DNA from: a virus | DNA length: 64,000 nt | Virus record (IMG/VR): IMGVR_UViG_3300021376_000039 | Span: 1 to 64,000 of that record | Strand: one strand, 5' to 3' | Shown: one piece after another, positions 9,779 to 51,774 of the stretch | How positions within the stretch are numbered: the first letter of the stretch is position 1 | Layout: each line of letters starts with the position of its first letter | Notes under the pieces: generated by a model | Told to the model about the DNA's origin: nothing | The model's input: only the letters and a program-made list of their open reading frames with translations | Database searches by the model: none | Made by a program: the position numbers and the translations under genes

Positions 9779-10425
9779 TTTTCTAATTTAATTTTATTAT
9801 CTAATAAGTTTTGGTTTATCAATAACATATCGGGACTAACTTTTATCATAAGAGCCGTGTTACTTTTAGATCTTTTTGAGTGAAGGTTTTCGAAAGTATC
9901 AATTTTGGATGCAAATCTTGTTATTAAATTATAAGAACCTTCATTCATTTTTTCAATGTCAATTTTACTAAACTGATTAATATAATCTAAATAAAATACT
10001 GGACTTTTTCTAATTAATGTACTATTCTTAAAAGAAATCCAATCATAGTCATAATCATTATTATCATATTGAGTACTTATAGATTTTTTAAGGGCACTTT
10101 CTAAATACTCAACGTTTTTAAAGTCACACTGAAATTTAATTATGTAATTGTTATAATCTTCAGTAATAATAACATTAGTTATTCCCTCTTGTTCGGAAAG
10201 TGTTTTCTTAAAAAGAGATATTTTTTGTTTTATATCCGAAACCTTAGGTACTTTTTCACCATTTAAACTGTCTAAGGCTAATATTGACGATACTTTTGAT
10301 TTACTTGAGCTTAGATTTATTGTATATTTAAAAGTTCCTGATCCATCGGAATTTAATTTTAAATCTTCAATTATTTCAATACAAGATGTTAAAAAAAGTA
10401 TTAATAAAAAACAAATATGTTTCAT
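9775..10425 (-). CDS. Predicted lipoprotein (216 aa)
   Basis: N-terminus MKHICFLLILFLTSC is a short type II signal peptide with lipobox LTSC, so the mature protein should be lipid-anchored at Cys15 in the host envelope. The rest (LKLNSDGSGTFKYTINL...) is a soluble alpha/beta region without recognised family, resembling Bacteroidetes lipoproteins of unknown role. A phage envelope lipoprotein could act in superinfection exclusion or lysis; neither is shown. It overlaps genes on both sides by 4 bases. Confidence 0.7.
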   Translation of the reverse strand: MKHICFLLILFLTSCIEIIEDLKLNSDGSGTFKYTINLSSSKSKVSSILALDSLNGEKVPKVSDIKQKISLFKKTLSEQEGITNVIITEDYNNYIIKFQCDFKNVEYLESALKKSISTQYDNNDYDYDWISFKNSTLIRKSPVFYLDYINQFSKIDIEKMNEGSYNLITRFASKIDTFENLHSKRSKSNTALMIKVSPDMLLINQNLLDNKIKLEK

Positions 10426-10646
10426 TTTTTTTCAAGTGTATCTATATGGTGTTGTAAATACCATAATGCTTTCTTTAAATCCTCCAATTCTTTATCCTTA
10501 TTCTTTTTCCCTGCTCTTGAGATATACTTTACGGTATTCCCCAAACTGAATCCCAAGCCCCAAGCATCTATTACTTTAATGGCTTCATATGGGTTTGACT
10601 CACCTCCATAATGATTTGGGTGATTTACTTGTTCTTTATTTTGCAT
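10422..10646 (-). CDS. DUF3310 family protein
   Basis: 74 residues. VNHPNHYGG at the start, then VIDAWGLGFSLGNTVKYISRAGKK and LEDLKKALWYLQHHI, the full DUF3310 pattern found in many phages, often labelled as a nucleotide-kinase-like protein without proof. It overlaps both neighbours, so it is translationally coupled to glutamine synthetase upstream and the lipoprotein downstream. Confidence 0.9.
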   Translation of the reverse strand: MQNKEQVNHPNHYGGESNPYEAIKVIDAWGLGFSLGNTVKYISRAGKKNKDKELEDLKKALWYLQHHIDTLEKK

Positions 10647-41100: not shown

Positions 41101-43314
41101 TTAAAAGTCTAACTTAATCGGATACTGCTGTATTCCCTGTCTTTTTTCGGGTGATTGTATCTTCGATATAACCATAAGTTCTTTATTAGCATTGTAAAGA
41201 GCAACTTCAGTGATGTATGGTGGTGTCGATCCGTCCCAAGTAGGATTAGATGAATCAAAGAATTGTGTTTGTCCTAAATTACAAAGAAAATTCATTACAT
41301 AAATTGTTGCTTGAATGTCTGTTTCAATATTACCAAAAAAGTAATACTCACCTCCAAAATTCAAAGTTAAACCTGTTTGACCTACTTGTGGTAGTTGTAT
41401 GTAATTATTTAAATCATATGTAGGTGCCGTATCATACATATTTTTAGTAATCTGTATTGTGGTACCTGTCATACCTGTTTGTGTTAAATAATTATTTACC
41501 GTTGTTGCTGATATTTGATTGTATACATCAATTTCTCTCCACAAAGTTGCCGAAGGTCTGGTTGTTCCACTTGGTACTTTTTGTGCTAATATTTTAATGT
41601 TATTTGCAGTAAAACCTGAAGGTATCGTTGTTAAGTTTTCTTGTAAAAATGGGAACTCGTTTCCAAATCTTACTAATATATCTGATGCTCCCGGTAGTAA
41701 ACTTTGATCATTACCTGTAATCGTTGAGTAGTAGTTACAATGTAATGAATTAGTAAATCCTGTATTTTCAAATAAATAAGTTAAAAACAATGTTTCAGTA
41801 TCTCCTGTTAATAATCCTGCGGTTCCACCTAAAACACCACTAAAAGTATTTGGGGTTACTAACCCAAGTTTAGGTGCCGGTAACGTCCAACTTCTATTTG
41901 ATTTATAATTTAATGCCGCAATTATTTCATCATCATCAAAAACAATCATTTTTAAATCAGGAAAAACTTTACCAACCCTATTTGGTACACCGTTAGTATT
42001 TGCGTGTGCATCCCATAAGTGGTAATATCTTAATCCAGGTGCATTAAAATTTAAATCTTTTTTAGATTTCATATAGTGTACTTGGAATAAGTTTTGAGTT
42101 GTGAACCCTGACGGATCAGTATAAAAAACTTCACCTATAGTTGCATTTGGATTTTTGTGCCACATTAACCAAGGAATAGAAAGTTTGAAATTTCTAGCTT
42201 GTCCTGTGTTTCCTGGATTTGTTGAATCATAATCCTCCATTGCAAATTTTTCACCATAAAAATTATCAATAGATTGGTTTGTATAATGGACTATAGCAAT
42301 TGCCTTTTGTTCTTCGGGAGTAACCGTAATTTTTTCTAAAAAAGAATTGTAATAATAAACTGAATCAGTATCCAATTGTCCCTCTTGGCTATTATACCCT
42401 AAGTATTCTTTTGTGTTTGTATATCCTGTAGATTTAAATTGGTTGTAATCTTGGTAGGTATTACTGAACAATCCTGCAGGTGATTCAGTCCAAGGAATAT
42501 TCATATTCCATATGTAAACATTTCTTTGCGAAACGTCACAATTTGTCTCAAAATTAATCACGTCGTTAGCCCAAAATGGTTCTGGTGTAAATGTATCATA
42601 CATCACTGTCATTCCACTAGGATAAAACATAGTACTTGATAATCCAGTAATTCCTAAAGAACCGAAATTAGGTAATGTCCTATCAACTTGAATATCTATT
42701 GTTGTTGCTGTTGAGCTGTCTCCTGTTACAGAAACGACTAAATAAGTAAACATAGGTGTTGATGCCGATAATGGTTGTAAAGTGTCGGTATTAAATAAAG
42801 TTAAAAACATTCCAGGGGTTACAGTACCCGAAGCCGATGGGTCTATAGTTGTTGCTGACAGTGTAATTACTGTACCCGAATGTAAAGTACTATTATCAAC
42901 AATAAAATTAGGATTTATAGTATATGCCGAAGATGTAAATGCACTAAAACTAATAGAAGATCCTGTTGAACCGGTAAAAAATCCTCTTGGTGCCGCACTA
43001 TTATAGACACTATCAATATATGAATTATCAAAAGGAACACCGAATGTGCATCCTGATGTTGAGTCGATAAATAATGGATACTTTACATGCATTCTGTTTT
43101 TTTGTGGTACTGGTGATAAATTTTGAGCGTTGTATTGTGGCATTAAAACATTATAATCAACCATGTCCATGTTTGATATACAATCATAACAAACTTCACT
43201 ATCCCCAACTTGAAAATATGCGATGTCGAATTTACCTTGTGATATTTTTCTTCTCGCAGCATCAGTAATTAATGTGTTAATTAATGCTGCGGTATTTTTA
43301 ATGATGTATGACAT
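41101..43314 (-). CDS. Virion structural protein, baseplate or tail (737 aa)
   Basis: Begins MSYIIKNTAALINTLITDAARRK and continues as a beta-rich, Ser/Thr/Gly-rich protein with aromatic repeats, typical of tail or baseplate structural proteins. The middle has helical SFLEKITVTPEEQKAIAIVHYTNQ. No specific T4 counterpart recognised. A TATTTATA box lies exactly 4 nt before the ATG. It is the last gene of the tail module in transcription order. Confidence 0.75.
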   Translation of the reverse strand: MSYIIKNTAALINTLITDAARRKISQGKFDIAYFQVGDSEVCYDCISNMDMVDYNVLMPQYNAQNLSPVPQKNRMHVKYPLFIDSTSGCTFGVPFDNSYIDSVYNSAAPRGFFTGSTGSSISFSAFTSSAYTINPNFIVDNSTLHSGTVITLSATTIDPSASGTVTPGMFLTLFNTDTLQPLSASTPMFTYLVVSVTGDSSTATTIDIQVDRTLPNFGSLGITGLSSTMFYPSGMTVMYDTFTPEPFWANDVINFETNCDVSQRNVYIWNMNIPWTESPAGLFSNTYQDYNQFKSTGYTNTKEYLGYNSQEGQLDTDSVYYYNSFLEKITVTPEEQKAIAIVHYTNQSIDNFYGEKFAMEDYDSTNPGNTGQARNFKLSIPWLMWHKNPNATIGEVFYTDPSGFTTQNLFQVHYMKSKKDLNFNAPGLRYYHLWDAHANTNGVPNRVGKVFPDLKMIVFDDDEIIAALNYKSNRSWTLPAPKLGLVTPNTFSGVLGGTAGLLTGDTETLFLTYLFENTGFTNSLHCNYYSTITGNDQSLLPGASDILVRFGNEFPFLQENLTTIPSGFTANNIKILAQKVPSGTTRPSATLWREIDVYNQISATTVNNYLTQTGMTGTTIQITKNMYDTAPTYDLNNYIQLPQVGQTGLTLNFGGEYYFFGNIETDIQATIYVMNFLCNLGQTQFFDSSNPTWDGSTPPYITEVALYNANKELMVISKIQSPEKRQGIQQYPIKLDF

Positions 43315-44948: not shown

Positions 44949-46505
44949 TTAGAATGTTGATCCGTTTAATCTTCTCCAACCTGTATTTGTTTTATAATAA
45001 AGATAGGTATTATCCCATGTTATTGATCCAGGTTCACCTGCGGTGTCTGCACTACTTGTTGGTGTGTATGACTCTGTAATTACAAAATTAGGTACATACG
45101 TTGTGTCACTATTAATTGCACTTATTGAGTTCCCTCCTAATATAACACTTCCAGGTGCACTAACATTATTATTTATACCTCCAATTATTGCAGAATTAAA
45201 TGATGTGATTGTATGTCCTGAACCAACAAAAACCCCCGAATGGTAAACATCATCACTAACAGATACACCTGAAATTGAGCTATAATCACTACCAATGATT
45301 GTCGATCCAGAAGTTACTCCTGACTGAACAGTATTCATTCTACCACCTATCACAACACTCCAATTACCATGAGCGTAGTTTAACTCCCCATGTGAAAACG
45401 CCAACTCTCCCGATACTGATCCGACTCCACCTGCGTGTGAACTACCTCCGTAAGCAATGGTTCCTTTGTTTTGTGCGTGAGCATATTGTCCTAAAGCTAT
45501 AGACGAATCTCCTTGCGCGTGTGAGAATATTCCAATTGATGTTGATGATCCTTCAGCGTGTGAGTAGTCACCTTTAGCTTTAGAGTAAGTTCCTTCAGCG
45601 TGTGATGAGCTTCCTATAGATTCGGTAAATGAACCTTCAGCATGTGATGCGTTACCAATTGCTAAAGTGCTATTACCTTCGGAGTGTGCGCCAACACCGT
45701 ACGAAAACGTGCTATTACCTTCAGATGAACTATATGGTCCGTAGGCGGCTGAAATATTACGAGAAGAAGATGCGTTACCAATACTGTAACTCCCCTCACC
45801 TTCAGAACTTGATGATTGCCCGATAGCAATACAACCACTACCATTTGCGTTAGCAAATTTGCCTCCAAATACTTGATCACCATTCCATACGTTTGGTGGA
45901 TATGTATTTGATATTACCCCTGGTTGTCCAAAAGTATTAACACTTATGTCATTTAAATAAACAATAGTATTTGTCCCATTGAATGTTACAGCACTTACAG
46001 ATGCAACATATGTTGAGTAGTTAGCCGAATATGACATATCATCAAATACAATAAAAGATGTTGTCCCTGTAGTATAATCAACTGTTGTGTCACCATATGA
46101 CGAATCTAATGTACAAACACCCGCAGTACACCCTGTTACCAAATAACCATTATCCGAACCTGTCCTTGTTCTTTGTCCATTAGCGTATGAAAAATCACCC
46201 CATGTCTCTGTAATATTACCCAACGCAAAAGATAATTCACCATAAGCGTTTGATGCTCTTGTTTGTGTTTCATCCCATATAGATATTGGGGAACATCCGT
46301 GAATGTTTGTAACATAAAAGTCAGTAATACAGTTACCTGATCCACCTGAAAATGTGGTACCAGTAAAAAGTGGTGATAATTGACTTAATGTTGCTTTATA
46401 TGAAGAACCATCAGGATCTTGTGATGTATCACCTGTTATTACAATGTGTATTAAATCATCTAAAGTAGCTCCACTTGCCAATGATCTCGTTGTTAATTTT
46501 GCCAT
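44949..46505 (-). CDS. Tail fibre protein with SHAEG repeats (518 aa)
   Basis: N-terminal attachment region (LIHIVITGDTSQDPDGSSYKA, then CITDFYVTNIHGCSPISIWDE) is shared with the fibre at 49926. The middle has many 14-residue units such as SHAEGNSTLAIGNA, SHAEGSFTESIGSS and SHAEGTYSKAKGDY, the left-handed beta-roll pattern of trimeric adhesin (YadA-like) heads. It ends in a short C-terminal knob (TSSADTAGEPGSITWDNTYLYYK). Likely a trimeric host-contacting fibre. Confidence 0.8.
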   Translation of the reverse strand: MAKLTTRSLASGATLDDLIHIVITGDTSQDPDGSSYKATLSQLSPLFTGTTFSGGSGNCITDFYVTNIHGCSPISIWDETQTRASNAYGELSFALGNITETWGDFSYANGQRTRTGSDNGYLVTGCTAGVCTLDSSYGDTTVDYTTGTTSFIVFDDMSYSANYSTYVASVSAVTFNGTNTIVYLNDISVNTFGQPGVISNTYPPNVWNGDQVFGGKFANANGSGCIAIGQSSSSEGEGSYSIGNASSSRNISAAYGPYSSSEGNSTFSYGVGAHSEGNSTLAIGNASHAEGSFTESIGSSSHAEGTYSKAKGDYSHAEGSSTSIGIFSHAQGDSSIALGQYAHAQNKGTIAYGGSSHAGGVGSVSGELAFSHGELNYAHGNWSVVIGGRMNTVQSGVTSGSTIIGSDYSSISGVSVSDDVYHSGVFVGSGHTITSFNSAIIGGINNNVSAPGSVILGGNSISAINSDTTYVPNFVITESYTPTSSADTAGEPGSITWDNTYLYYKTNTGWRRLNGSTF

Positions 46506-46531: not shown

Positions 46532-46822
46532 TTATTGAAATTGATATGGTGTTCCATCCATAAATTCAAATAAATCTGAATCTTGGAACTGTTTATAATT
46601 TAATTCGTTATCGCAATATACACATCCATTATCATCTATTATTTTTATAACATATGTTAAGTATGTTTCAAATACTGATGGTAATGTGAATGAATATGGT
46701 ATTGTTGAAGTAGTGTCTATATATTGACATGTCCCATAACAATCATCACATACCCATATATCGTATGGTGATGTTCCTGATGTTACTGAATTTATTGTTA
46801 CTATTGTTACTATTGTTGCCAT
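46532..46822 (-). CDS. Single Ig-like domain protein, fibre-associated (96 aa)
   Basis: SVTSGTSPYDIWVCDDCYGTC ... VIKIIDDNGCVYCD ... FEFMDGTPYQFQ. One SprB-like Ig unit with Cys pairs. Paralogous to the two proteins at 51202 and 51487. Probably a fibre tip or decoration subunit. Confidence 0.6.
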   Translation of the reverse strand: MATIVTIVTINSVTSGTSPYDIWVCDDCYGTCQYIDTTSTIPYSFTLPSVFETYLTYVIKIIDDNGCVYCDNELNYKQFQDSDLFEFMDGTPYQFQ

Positions 46823-46826
46823 AATT

Positions 46827-48623
46827 TTAACAGTTTCCGTTTGGTGTACACTTAAATGTTAATTTACCATTACCATTAACCTCAAATATTTGAGATGTTG
46901 CATTACCACTTTGGTTTATAGGTACTTTTATGTATGTAACACTTAAAGGTGTACTTAATGAACTATCTTCATATACATAAACCCCTGTTTGTATTGTATT
47001 AACATTAAATGCCGTAAAGAAATTTGCAGGTACCCCAAAGTTTGTAAGCTCACAAACTGGACAAGAAAGTGAAAATTCTCCTGATGCTATCCACTCTTTG
47101 TATTTTGGTGTTGGTGTTGGTTCCGGTACTAAACATTCTAAACATGTTGTATATGTTGTTGCAGTTGTTGCAGTAAAGGTATCTTGCGTTACAGATATAA
47201 ATCCAGCAGGTGGTGTATATCCAACATAATTACCAATATAATTATAACAATCCCCTGTTGTTTTTAAGATATCCCCAATAACCACATTAATTGGTGGATA
47301 TGCGTTTTGTATTATCATTGTATTATTAGTACATGATGTAAATATAAATTGTGTTCCCATAGGATATGACGGTGGCGTTGGTAATACACATTCAGTGTCC
47401 CCTGTACAAGTACCCCCTGAAACTATATTAGTTGTTCCTGTCACACAACTAAACGAAACTGAATTTTCTTGTGCACAAATACCAAAAGAAGTGTCACCTG
47501 TTAATATTAATGATTCTGAATTACCTGAACATCCTAACCAAGTAATAGTACAACCGCTATTTCCTGAAATTGTGTAACAATAACATAATGGAGTTGGGGT
47601 TGGTGTTGGAGTTGGTGTAGGTGTAACACAAACAGAACATCCACTATATACATCTAACACTTGTATTAAGTTTCTATTGCTTGATGCTGTTGTCGTACCT
47701 AAATAAGTAACACATTGTATTTGATTAGAAGAACTTCCATATAAAAGTGCTAAGAACGTAGTTCCTGTACTAATTGCCGATCCTGAATATGTTATTTGTT
47801 CTGTTATATAATAATGTTCTCCCGTATCACAGTCCAATAAATCTTTAACTGATGAACAAACAAAACTTCCATTATCAACAACAAATGTTACGGTATCTGC
47901 TGATGGTGTTACGGGACAAGGGGTTGGTGTAGGTGTTGGTGTTGGTGTTGGAGTTGGTGTGCTACCAGTGGTGGTTGTAGAAATATTCGCGGTAAAACCA
48001 CTACATAAATCGGCTGTCGGTGTTGGAGTTGGAGTCGGTGTTGGAGTCGGTGTTGGAGTCGGTGTTGGAGTTGGTGTAGGTATATCACATTCAAGTAATA
48101 CGTCAAAATCTAAATCAGAGCACGGATCTGTTGGTGTTGGTGGTGGTGTACACGAACCATTATAAAAAACGGTACTATCTAAATCAGGACATCCGTTAGA
48201 TGTTGGGTTTTGTCCAAAAAAATCGCAACTTCCACCTAAACTATTACTTAAACACCAATTAGTTCCATTAAAGAATAAATATCCAGGACTAGTTCCACCT
48301 GTCCAATAATAGTAACCATCATAATCACCATACATTGTGTAAGTACCATTATACCCACTATAAGAATCAATACTTATATCTACACAATAATTATTTTCAC
48401 AATATCCTGTACATAAATAATCATTACAATCAGTGACTAAAGTAGCAACACCATCAATGGTTACTGTAGCACTAGCTAATGAACCGATAGTGTAACAACC
48501 ATCAGGGATTACGGTATCACCGGTAATGTTAAATACAAGTCCAAGTGTTGTCGAATAACTCCAACCTAAAACCCTAAAATTAACGCTGCTATTTATACAG
48601 TTTTGAATGTTTACTAAAGCCAT
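46827..48623 (-). CDS. Tail fibre protein with Pro-Thr repeat linkers (598 aa)
   Basis: Cys-rich beta domains are separated by long alternating Pro-Thr linkers: a run of about 24 residues near 170-200, further runs near 220-235 and 335-350, and shorter ones elsewhere. Such linkers are stiff and mucin-like. The domains carry paired Cys (DCNDYLCTGYCENNYCVD). The gene lies directly downstream of a GT60-type glycosyltransferase gene, and Thr in the linkers is a plausible O-glycosylation substrate. Confidence 0.75.
   Translation of the reverse strand: MALVNIQNCINSSVNFRVLGWSYSTTLGLVFNITGDTVIPDGCYTIGSLASATVTIDGVATLVTDCNDYLCTGYCENNYCVDISIDSYSGYNGTYTMYGDYDGYYYWTGGTSPGYLFFNGTNWCLSNSLGGSCDFFGQNPTSNGCPDLDSTVFYNGSCTPPPTPTDPCSDLDFDVLLECDIPTPTPTPTPTPTPTPTPTPTPTADLCSGFTANISTTTTGSTPTPTPTPTPTPTPCPVTPSADTVTFVVDNGSFVCSSVKDLLDCDTGEHYYITEQITYSGSAISTGTTFLALLYGSSSNQIQCVTYLGTTTASSNRNLIQVLDVYSGCSVCVTPTPTPTPTPTPLCYCYTISGNSGCTITWLGCSGNSESLILTGDTSFGICAQENSVSFSCVTGTTNIVSGGTCTGDTECVLPTPPSYPMGTQFIFTSCTNNTMIIQNAYPPINVVIGDILKTTGDCYNYIGNYVGYTPPAGFISVTQDTFTATTATTYTTCLECLVPEPTPTPKYKEWIASGEFSLSCPVCELTNFGVPANFFTAFNVNTIQTGVYVYEDSSLSTPLSVTYIKVPINQSGNATSQIFEVNGNGKLTFKCTPNGNC
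47587..47628 (-). repeat. Tandem repeat encoding a Pro-Thr linker
   Basis: Plus-strand units of about 6 bp (ggtgtt/ggagtt) with synonymous variation, encoding alternating Thr-Pro on the minus strand. Part of the fibre gene at 46827-48623. Confidence 0.8.
47920..47961 (-). repeat. Tandem repeat encoding a Pro-Thr linker
   Basis: Second 6-bp repeat tract (ggtgtt, ggagtt) in the same fibre gene. Confidence 0.8.
48019..48080 (-). repeat. Longest Pro-Thr tandem repeat, 12-bp period
   Basis: Units of ggtgttggagtc repeat about five times, a 12-bp period within the 6-bp Pro-Thr codon pair. Such tracts can change copy number and so alter fibre linker length. Confidence 0.85.
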
Positions 48624-48685
48624 CGATTTTTAACTTTATTATATAAATAATCTAAAGTTTATTTTATTTAAAATGATTTATAAAA

Positions 48686-49888
48686 TTATAGTGTTAAAGA
48701 GAAATCTATCCTATTAATCCATTCACCATTTTTATTATTAACCCAATATATCCACTTATGTGGTTTTTCAAATGTTTTTAAGTCAATTTTTAAGTATTCT
48801 TGGTATTGAAATAAGTCATGTCTATGGATAACATTACCCATTTCATCTTCAATTCCAATATAAATAAAATTAAAATTATCTGTAAATGGTATATAAAGAT
48901 TTAAATTATATGTTTTTTCCAATTTTTTATACCAATCAGTTTTGTCATTTATTGGTGGGTTTGTACCTTTCATTGTTTCAGGATGTAGTATTCTGTTTTT
49001 AAAGTTAATCCCCGCATAATCCTCATAATCTTTATGTGTTCTAACATCACCTAAACCATATATCGTTAAATCAATATTATTATCTTCTTCTTGTAGCATA
49101 TGTCTTAGTCTACGTTTAGACTCATTATCCATTTCCCACCATTGTTTTTCAACAACCCCATTATTTTTATTTTCTTGGTTGAAGTCTGTCCAATGTTTTG
49201 TTCTTCCTTCTCTTGTGTATTCGTGCCAAACAACAGTTTTATGTGGATGGAATAAGTCATAACCTAACGTGTATGAACGAATTGATAAACTAATCTCATC
49301 TCCAGCAAAATATATATTCGGATCATACTTATATTCCTCACAATGTTTTCCAATAGTAAAAAAGAAATGCCCACTAACAAATCTTGCAGGTATTGGTTTT
49401 TCTAGAGTTTGCCAATTTGGAATTGCGTGTGGTCTAAAAAGTATTGTACCTCCAGGTGTGAAATTAGATGCTAACATCATATATGGTTCGACATTTAATA
49501 ATTGGTTATCAGACGGTCGGTACATACCCGCATAAGACGTAATAATTGGTTTTTCTGAACCTGTCATTTTCATCATTTCAATTAATTCTTCATCCCAATT
49601 TTTTAAAAATCTATGATGTGAATCCAACTGCATAGTGTATTCTTCACCATTCCATAATTTTTGAATTTCTGAACGAGCCCAACAAAGTCCTTTACTTTGT
49701 GTCCAATGATAATCTAATATTTTAAATCTATCATCATTTGTAAATTCTTCCATTGATTCGGTTTCGTCTCTTTGCCAACAAATACCGAATGTTAAATTTT
49801 CAGGATATTTTGCTTTGTTAATACAATCTCTAACTGTTGGTAATAATTCGGGGTCCCTATATGACGCTATTTGTACGAATATTTTCAT
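48686..49888 (-). CDS. GT60-type glycosyltransferase (GlcNAc transferase-like)
   Basis: 400 residues. IFVQIASYRDPELLPTVRDCI, FGICWQRDE, GLCWARSEIQKLWNGEEY and LDSHHRF (the metal-binding D-x-H) match the polypeptide GlcNAc-transferase family GT60, known from eukaryotic Skp1 and from trypanosome mucin glycosylation. It sits inside the fibre cluster, just upstream of the Pro-Thr fibre gene on the same strand. Likely modifies phage fibre proteins or, less likely, host surface sugars. Confidence 0.8.
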   Translation of the reverse strand: MKIFVQIASYRDPELLPTVRDCINKAKYPENLTFGICWQRDETESMEEFTNDDRFKILDYHWTQSKGLCWARSEIQKLWNGEEYTMQLDSHHRFLKNWDEELIEMMKMTGSEKPIITSYAGMYRPSDNQLLNVEPYMMLASNFTPGGTILFRPHAIPNWQTLEKPIPARFVSGHFFFTIGKHCEEYKYDPNIYFAGDEISLSIRSYTLGYDLFHPHKTVVWHEYTREGRTKHWTDFNQENKNNGVVEKQWWEMDNESKRRLRHMLQEEDNNIDLTIYGLGDVRTHKDYEDYAGINFKNRILHPETMKGTNPPINDKTDWYKKLEKTYNLNLYIPFTDNFNFIYIGIEDEMGNVIHRHDLFQYQEYLKIDLKTFEKPHKWIYWVNNKNGEWINRIDFSLTL

Positions 49889-51201: not shown

Positions 51202-51486
51202 TTATTCGAACATATAGTTGTTGCCGTCCATAAAAATAAATAAATTACCATCTTGAAATATTTTTTGTCCACAGATTAGGGATTGGTAATGAATGCACCC
51301 ATTTGTATCTATTATTTTTACGTTTAAATTATTTTCGTAAGGAAAATAATATTCAGTATTAAAACTTACGGTAGGTGGTATAAATGTTGTTCCCGATACA
51401 TAAAAACAAGAGGTGTTTGTTACATCACATATGAATACGTCATATGGTGCCTGCCCGCTAGTTACTCCTGTTACTTCTATTAACAT
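51202..51486 (-). CDS. Single Ig-like domain protein, fibre-associated (94 aa)
   Basis: VTSGQAPYDVFICDVTNTSCF ... VKIIDTNGCIHYQ ... LFIFMDGNNYMFE. Closely related to the 46532 protein (same APYD/SPYD-CD start and FMDG end). Abuts the 51487 paralogue with no gap. Confidence 0.6.
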   Translation of the reverse strand: MLIEVTGVTSGQAPYDVFICDVTNTSCFYVSGTTFIPPTVSFNTEYYFPYENNLNVKIIDTNGCIHYQSLICGQKIFQDGNLFIFMDGNNYMFE

Positions 51487-51774
51487 CTATATCCAAACTA
51501 ATCTATCCCCACTTTCTGTGGTTATTATGAGTGCCGTCTCAGTTAATATAAAAAATGTGTCGGCAGGACAATAAACATACTTGAATATCAAACATCCCGT
51601 ACTATCAACTAACTTGATTAGTAAAACTTGAGCTGATGAAAAAAAAGAGTTAAGTGTATATGTTGTTCCTGTTGACCCCAACAAAAAACAGTTATTCATG
51701 TATTGGTCACATACATAAAACTGATATGGAGGTGTCCCTCCTGTCTCTCCTGATATAATTAATTGTGATGGCAT
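51487..51774 (-). CDS. Single Ig-like domain protein, fibre-associated (95 aa)
   Basis: GETGGTPPYQFYVCDQYMNNCF ... LIKLVDSTGCLIF. Third member of the family; its C-terminus differs (TTESGDRLVWI). Shares one base with the large SprB-repeat fibre gene upstream, so it may be a detached domain of it. Confidence 0.6.
   Translation of the reverse strand: MPSQLIISGETGGTPPYQFYVCDQYMNNCFLLGSTGTTYTLNSFFSSAQVLLIKLVDSTGCLIFKYVYCPADTFFILTETALIITTESGDRLVWI

Follow-up and report, generated by a model that had tools for sequence, protein, structure and literature searches.

The gene pair and its surroundings

The window analysed here is a 64-kb stretch of a 71.6-kb virus record, the source of which is termed a freshwater giant phage. 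As seen in Table 1, it encodes a GT60-type glycosyltransferase and, next to it, a multi-domain protein with proline- and threonine-rich (P/T) linkers, referred to below as the fibre. The GT60 gene lies 5' of the fibre gene in the direction of transcription, with a gap of 62 bp. Both open reading frames (ORFs) are exactly where an earlier note on this DNA had placed them, and the alternating Pro-Thr linkers that it had described in the fibre were found as three tracts of 22, 14, and 12 residues.

Table 1. Features of the GT60-fibre region, in window coordinates
Feature	Position	Strand	Basis
GT60-type glycosyltransferase (PF11397), 400 aa	48686..49888	-	Pfam, PHROG, AF2 model, Foldseek
DSH codons 89-91 (DxH metal/nucleotide motif)	49616..49624	-	Alignment A4, invariant in 19 relatives
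Glu198 in FAGDEISLSIR	49295..49297	-	Invariant in alignment
His222 in WHEYTR, candidate metal ligand	49223..49225	-	Invariant; role by analogy with GT27
Multi-domain P/T-linker protein ('fibre'), 598 aa, 35 Cys; candidate acceptor	46827..48623	-	ORF, sequence
Pro-Thr tract 1, residues 182-203, 22 aa, 11 Thr	48015..48080	-	Sequence
Pro-Thr tract 2, residues 222-235, 14 aa, 7 Thr	47919..47960	-	Sequence
Pro-Thr tract 3, residues 334-345, 12 aa, 6 Thr	47589..47624	-	Sequence
Small 96-aa protein, kept downstream of fibre in relatives	46532..46822	-	ORF, relatives
518-aa fibre-like protein with YadA-head-like repeats, next downstream	44949..46505	-	PF05658 E 0.0017 (weak), phrog_25468 3e-13

Spaced through the tail cluster are three small proteins, each about 95 aa long and similar to one another in sequence (51202-51486, 51487-51774, and 46532-46822). 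They are kept in relatives, some of which have longer versions with P/T runs. At the start of the window, 11 tRNA genes stand in tandem on the minus strand (4-2533).

The 400-aa protein as a GT60 enzyme

The 400-aa protein was matched by PF11397 ('GlcNAc', CAZy GT60) with E=7.3e-68 and a score of 230 bits (cut-off 21), which bears out the GT60 assignment made earlier from the sequence, and by phrog_24687 ('glycosyltransferase') at 4.5e-101. Four residues were invariant in an alignment of 19 diverse homologues down to 39% identity, among them the proteins of XacN1 and RAS14, two phages in culture. Two of these, D89 and H91, belong to the DSH motif at residues 89-91, where the DxH site anticipated in the earlier note is found. 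The other two are E198 and H222. Glu198 was set by eye opposite what we take to be the GGxxxE motif of GT27 enzymes, and the analogy suggests that E198 and H222 are further acidic and histidine residues of a retaining GT-A site. Decay of the gene was ruled out, since it is intact in relatives and has a dN/dS of about 0.06 relative to the nearest of them (0.048/0.768), a ratio that indicates strong purifying selection.

The AF2 model of the enzyme, built with 18 relatives, was of middling quality (mean pLDDT 72, pTM 0.63), and residues 184-209 and 244-282 were poorly predicted. When the PDB was searched with this model using Foldseek, ranks 1-44 were all polypeptide GalNAc-transferases (GT27), with a best E of 2.5e-10. 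With the moderate confidence of the model, the predicted fold is GT-A and its nearest relatives are polypeptide HexNAc-transferases. The C-terminal 75 or so residues were modeled as a separate, well-ordered beta domain of six strands that occupies the site of the ricin domain in GT27 enzymes. The phage protein resembles the GT27 enzymes, which initiate animal mucin-type chains, in its modeled fold, its DxH motif, and the P/T-rich type of acceptor. Unlike them, it has no ricin lectin domain by Pfam, and sequence and even profile searches of the PDB gave no match and found no GT60 structure. We class the 400-aa enzyme as a GT60 member with a predicted polypeptide-type transferase activity. In two other records (L043 and L044, about 10001-10471), the GT60 match was down to 157 residues, which could reflect either decay of the gene or a break in the assembly.

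The P/T-linker protein

In a scan of the window for P/T content, the fibre scored 25/30 and was the sole protein above 14/30. It consists of folded regions joined by dense Pro-Thr linkers, which is the layout of a mucin-type O-glycoprotein. The tracts use mixed codons (CCA, CCG, or CCT with ACA, ACT, or ACC) and are therefore not a simple DNA microsatellite, an origin that was ruled out on this ground. A portion of tract 1 is a repeated 12-mer at the DNA level.

Neither Pfam nor PHROGs gave a naming family match for the fibre and most of its cluster. A PHROGs search of the tail-cluster proteins returned no names, and a PDB profile search with two neighbouring tail-cluster proteins gave no useful match. 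Neighbours of the fibre carry YadA-head repeats, by the weak match in Table 1, and SprB repeats, and one of them matches a 'virion structural protein' PHROG (1.2e-10). This gene context suggests virion or adhesion proteins, and it is from context that the label 'tail fibre' is taken.

Conservation of the pair and an exchangeable slot upstream of the fibre

Close GT60s were detected by protein search in 45 viral loci. Nearly all of those in the lineage of the window encode a protein of 530-700 aa with PT runs 0-1 genes downstream of GT60. In about half of this lineage, a further gene of 265 codons stands between GT60 and the fibre and usually overlaps the GT60 stop; the window itself does not have it in this slot. 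The product of the 265-aa gene had no Pfam or NCBIfam match. It was modeled as a GT-A enzyme (pLDDT 70.5), and the top Foldseek match was GT6 with a TM of about 0.5, the GT6 matches being blood-group and alpha-1,3-galactosyl transferases. This resemblance to GT6 makes it likely that sugars are added in two steps in those relatives, with the 265-aa enzyme acting second. The possibility that this gene encodes a prolyl hydroxylase was rejected, given the GT-A/GT6-like model and the absence of PF13640 genes from 13 GT60 phage records.

To avoid recruitment by GT60 or the fibre, relatives were also collected with another anchor, the gene for a 737-aa protein (41101-43314; alignment A1), and surveyed with local profiles. 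Clustering at 90% gave 43 fibre clusters with at least two upstream genes each. The counts come from this anchor because a second survey (A2) mostly ended before the fibre, owing to contig ends and flank length. Glycosyltransferase-type genes were among the three upstream genes in 39 of the 43 clusters. The slot upstream of the fibre held GT60, GT60 with a second enzyme, or replacements, which by Pfam were GT29 (L054), GT34 (L073), HtrL_YibB with UDP-galactopyranose mutase/GLF (L083), GT10 (L109, L115), GT25 (L100, L125), GT-D (L123), and methyltransferases. All 131 glycosyltransferase-type genes lay at -1 to -5 from the fibre and none was among the 698 genes at +1 to +11, a comparison in which downstream enzymes of other families could be missed, as the probe set was partly defined from slot genes. 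The slot is clearly a cassette-exchange site.

A PF11397 gene was present in 11 of the 26 records that had no GT60 near the fibre, a cut-off fibre region, or no detected fibre. The fibres of three records (L119, L120, and L122) have short PT runs, with no glycosyltransferase in the slot and no GT60 in the records. GT29 (sialyltransferase-like) genes adjoin P/T-rich proteins in phages and a Prosthecobacter genome (L281, L054, L055, L058, and L072).

Co-occurrence of GT60 and P/T-rich proteins

With a diverse alignment as the query, at least 588 viral and at least 170 bacterial stretches were found to encode GT60 relatives. A P/T-rich ORF adjoined GT60 in 23 of 62 viral clusters, whereas 2000 permutations done within each locus, which controls for genome make-up, averaged 9.4 and never exceeded 20. 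In the bacterial loci (63 clusters), all 18 P/T-rich ORFs were within three genes of GT60 and none was farther away (Fisher p 1.7e-6). GT60 was present in 12 of 50 virus records picked for (PT)6 and in none of 50 picked for (PK)5 (p 2e-4); the other 38 (PT)6 records were without GT60. On the GT60 tree, 15 changes of the bacterial label are required for 17 rows, no fewer than 12 of them forced. This scatter of the bacterial cases suggests that the pairing was gained or retained on many occasions.

The earlier note had proposed a survey of whether GT60 genes and Pro-Thr fibres co-occur in related phages, and the viral adjacency and the closeness of the bacterial P/T-rich ORFs give it a clearly positive outcome. 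The note had also held that GT60 genes regularly present without such fibres nearby would refute the module. This is partly the case, since 21 of 62 viral clusters, about one-third, and 46 of 63 bacterial clusters had no P/T-rich ORF in the examined flank. Many IMG/VR records are fragments. On the other side, among GT60 records with no close P/T gene, or with one several genes off, 8 of 24 had (PT)4 in the genome, compared to 0 of 41 control records (p 1.5e-4).

GT60 beside bacterial contractile machines and other surface proteins

A gene for VgrG, the spike of the type VI secretion system (T6SS), is found about 5 kb away from GT60 in Paraburkholderia, Trinickia, and Cupriavidus (Burkholderiaceae loci L311-L315, L317, L318, L324, L326, L332, and L356). 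Two of these VgrGs were confirmed by Pfam (PF05954, PF22178, and PF04717), and PAAR and TssA are near one of them. At the C terminus, most of the 11 VgrG homologues near GT60 have long repeats in which Pro is combined with Thr or Ser; these include (PT)20, PPSEE, PPETEE, PEPST, PEPSDE, and PDET. In two Sphingomonas genomes (L289 and L299), GT60 adjoins a P/T-repeat protein of about 1200 aa. Pfam names only a glycoside-hydrolase-like domain in this cluster, which we read as a putative baseplate of an extracellular injection machine.

Taken with the phage loci, these cases raise a wider reading: that GT60s carry out a widespread prokaryotic mucin-type O-glycosylation dedicated to Pro-Thr/Ser linkers in machines of the contractile-tail type and in further surface proteins (fibres of phages, VgrG spikes of T6SSs, and extracellular injection systems), with glycan diversity driven by the cassette slot beside the acceptor gene. 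We give this reading an even chance.

Two further kinds of neighbour were seen. The P/T-rich proteins beside GT60 in Bacteroidota (L298:8504-9649 and L304:8941-9729) have RR-containing, twin-arginine-like N-termini, which would be compatible with glycosylation ahead of folded-protein export. A carbamoyltransferase gene adjoins GT60 in XacN1 (L603, ORF333-334) and in Jiulongibacter (L304:11235-12806), which suggests carbamoylated sugars; carbamoyltransferases are known in DNA or small-molecule modification.

Proposed mechanism and alternative explanations

GT60 stands beside a P/T-linker protein in the window, and related pairings occur in hundreds of phage and bacterial relatives. Because of this, it is probable that phages glycosylate their own fibres by mucin-type chemistry. 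The same proposal in the earlier note is supported by the adjacency of GT60 to P/T-rich genes and by the glycosyltransferase-filled slot. We favour, with good though not full confidence, the prediction that the module serves mucin-type O-glycosylation as a unit encoded by the phage, in which GT60 acts on the Pro-Thr linkers.

The observations are the homology and intact motifs of the enzyme, the selection on its gene, its predicted fold, and the adjacency of the pair, which is conserved; from here we infer the donor sugar, the Thr acceptor, the timing, and the benefit. The two genes stand head-to-tail and would probably form one transcription unit. In the host cytosol, before virion assembly, GT60 would transfer an alpha-linked HexNAc to threonines of the linkers, and the donor would most likely be GlcNAc from the host UDP-GlcNAc pool. 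The 24 Thr in the three tracts are candidate sites. The Skp1-type pathway, in which GlcNAc is placed on hydroxyproline, has a companion prolyl 4-hydroxylase. The corresponding family, PF13640, was absent from the 13 GT60 phage records searched, several of them fragments, which makes a hydroxyproline acceptor less likely and favours Thr; a host enzyme could be the source of such an activity. The sugar would be extended in many relatives by a further enzyme, such as a GT6-like, HtrL/YibB, or GT2-like one. Exchange of the upstream enzyme slot as a cassette would make the chemistry differ from lineage to lineage. As likely benefits, the sugars would stiffen the linkers and shield them from proteases, so that they keep receptor-binding domains apart, and would give the virion a variable coat that diversifies its surface.

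Another possible explanation is that GT60 modifies a surface glycan or glycoprotein of the host, as in receptor masking, superinfection exclusion, or serotype change, and that its adjacency to the fibre stems from co-evolution of receptor binding and receptor change. Some temperate-phage glycosyltransferases do alter host serotype (reviewed in PMC12619734), and slot enzymes of many kinds are what tinkering with surface glycans predicts. However, the nearest fold is that of a polypeptide transferase, and the pairing is also found in bacteria beside T6SS VgrGs and putative injection baseplates, where no phage receptor is involved. We consider this explanation unlikely.

It could also be that the neighbourhood has no function. 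P/T linkers and sugar genes are common in large aquatic phages and might simply share a recombination hotspot at the fibre, with the enzyme inert on it. The many PT-linker proteins in records without GT60 and the exchange of cassettes in the slot fit this explanation, but shuffling within each locus still leaves an excess of adjacency, the pairing recurs in unrelated bacterial machines, and controls not chosen for PT had neither (PT)4 (0/41) nor GT60 (0/50). This makes a chance neighbourhood very improbable. Least probable of all is that GT60 glycosylates modified bases of phage DNA: phage glycosyltransferases that act on DNA are known (PMC5852040, PMC12619734) and the carbamoyltransferase beside GT60 in XacN1 and one bacterium would agree with it, but in the lineage of the window GT60 lies beside fibre genes and not replication genes, it pairs with P/T-rich proteins in phages and bacteria alike, and the fold and known substrates of the family point to polypeptides.

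Relation to known glycosylation systems

Mucin-type O-glycosylation is generally seen as a feature of eukaryotes. If the proposed action of phage and bacterial GT60s on Pro-Thr linkers is true, mucin-type chemistry would have a place in prokaryotes, and exchangeable sugar coats would join the means by which phages vary their fibres. Literature searches on phage GT60s and on the glycosylation of tail fibres gave no match, with sparse coverage of subscription papers. The module is reminiscent of flagellin glycosylation islands, in which variable glycosylation genes lie beside the flagellin gene. Both have exchangeable sugar genes next to one surface fibre gene, but the module is in phages and its usual first enzyme is a polypeptide-type GT60. 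The proposal would also give a role to the many unassigned glycosyltransferases of large aquatic phages; in 'moraphages', four glycosyltransferases are core genes and their role was left open (PMC12619734).

The GT60s of protists are polypeptide alpha-GlcNAc-transferases that start mucin-type chains with alpha-GlcNAc on mucin domains (PMC8724618). Those of Dictyostelium (the mucin and Skp1 enzymes) and Trypanosoma cruzi (the mucin GlcNAc-transferase) share with the phage enzyme the PF11397 domain, the lack of a ricin domain, and the Thr/Pro-rich type of acceptor. In contrast to them, the phage gene stands in a row with a gene for a virion-type protein, its product has a C-terminal domain of beta strands, and the candidate acceptor is a regular (PT)n linker.

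Virion glycosylation has been described for the mycobacteriophages Che8, Corndog, and Myrna (Freeman et al. 2023, as cited in PMC11256854 and PMC12363180), where phage-encoded transferases likewise decorate the phage's own virion. As those citing papers present the work, the targets are the capsid and tail tube, and neither GT60 nor a P/T-linker acceptor is described. The module would be phage virion glycosylation in a new form.

At least two virion glycoproteins were found by proteomic analysis in the Xanthomonas phage XacN1, whose authors suggested that phage glycosyltransferases are responsible and named ORF328 and ORF334; the main text gives neither the sugar-bearing proteins nor the acting enzyme (PMC5852040). 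We found ORF334 to be a GT60, 37% identical to that of the window. A whole-genome pattern search of XacN1 found at least seven P/T-rich proteins, including ORF325 next to baseplate-wedge genes, so that a reading of this phage as one with GT60 but without P/T proteins was rejected. XacN1 therefore resembles the window in having both GT60 and P/T-rich proteins, and differs from it in that a GT9-family enzyme is also present.
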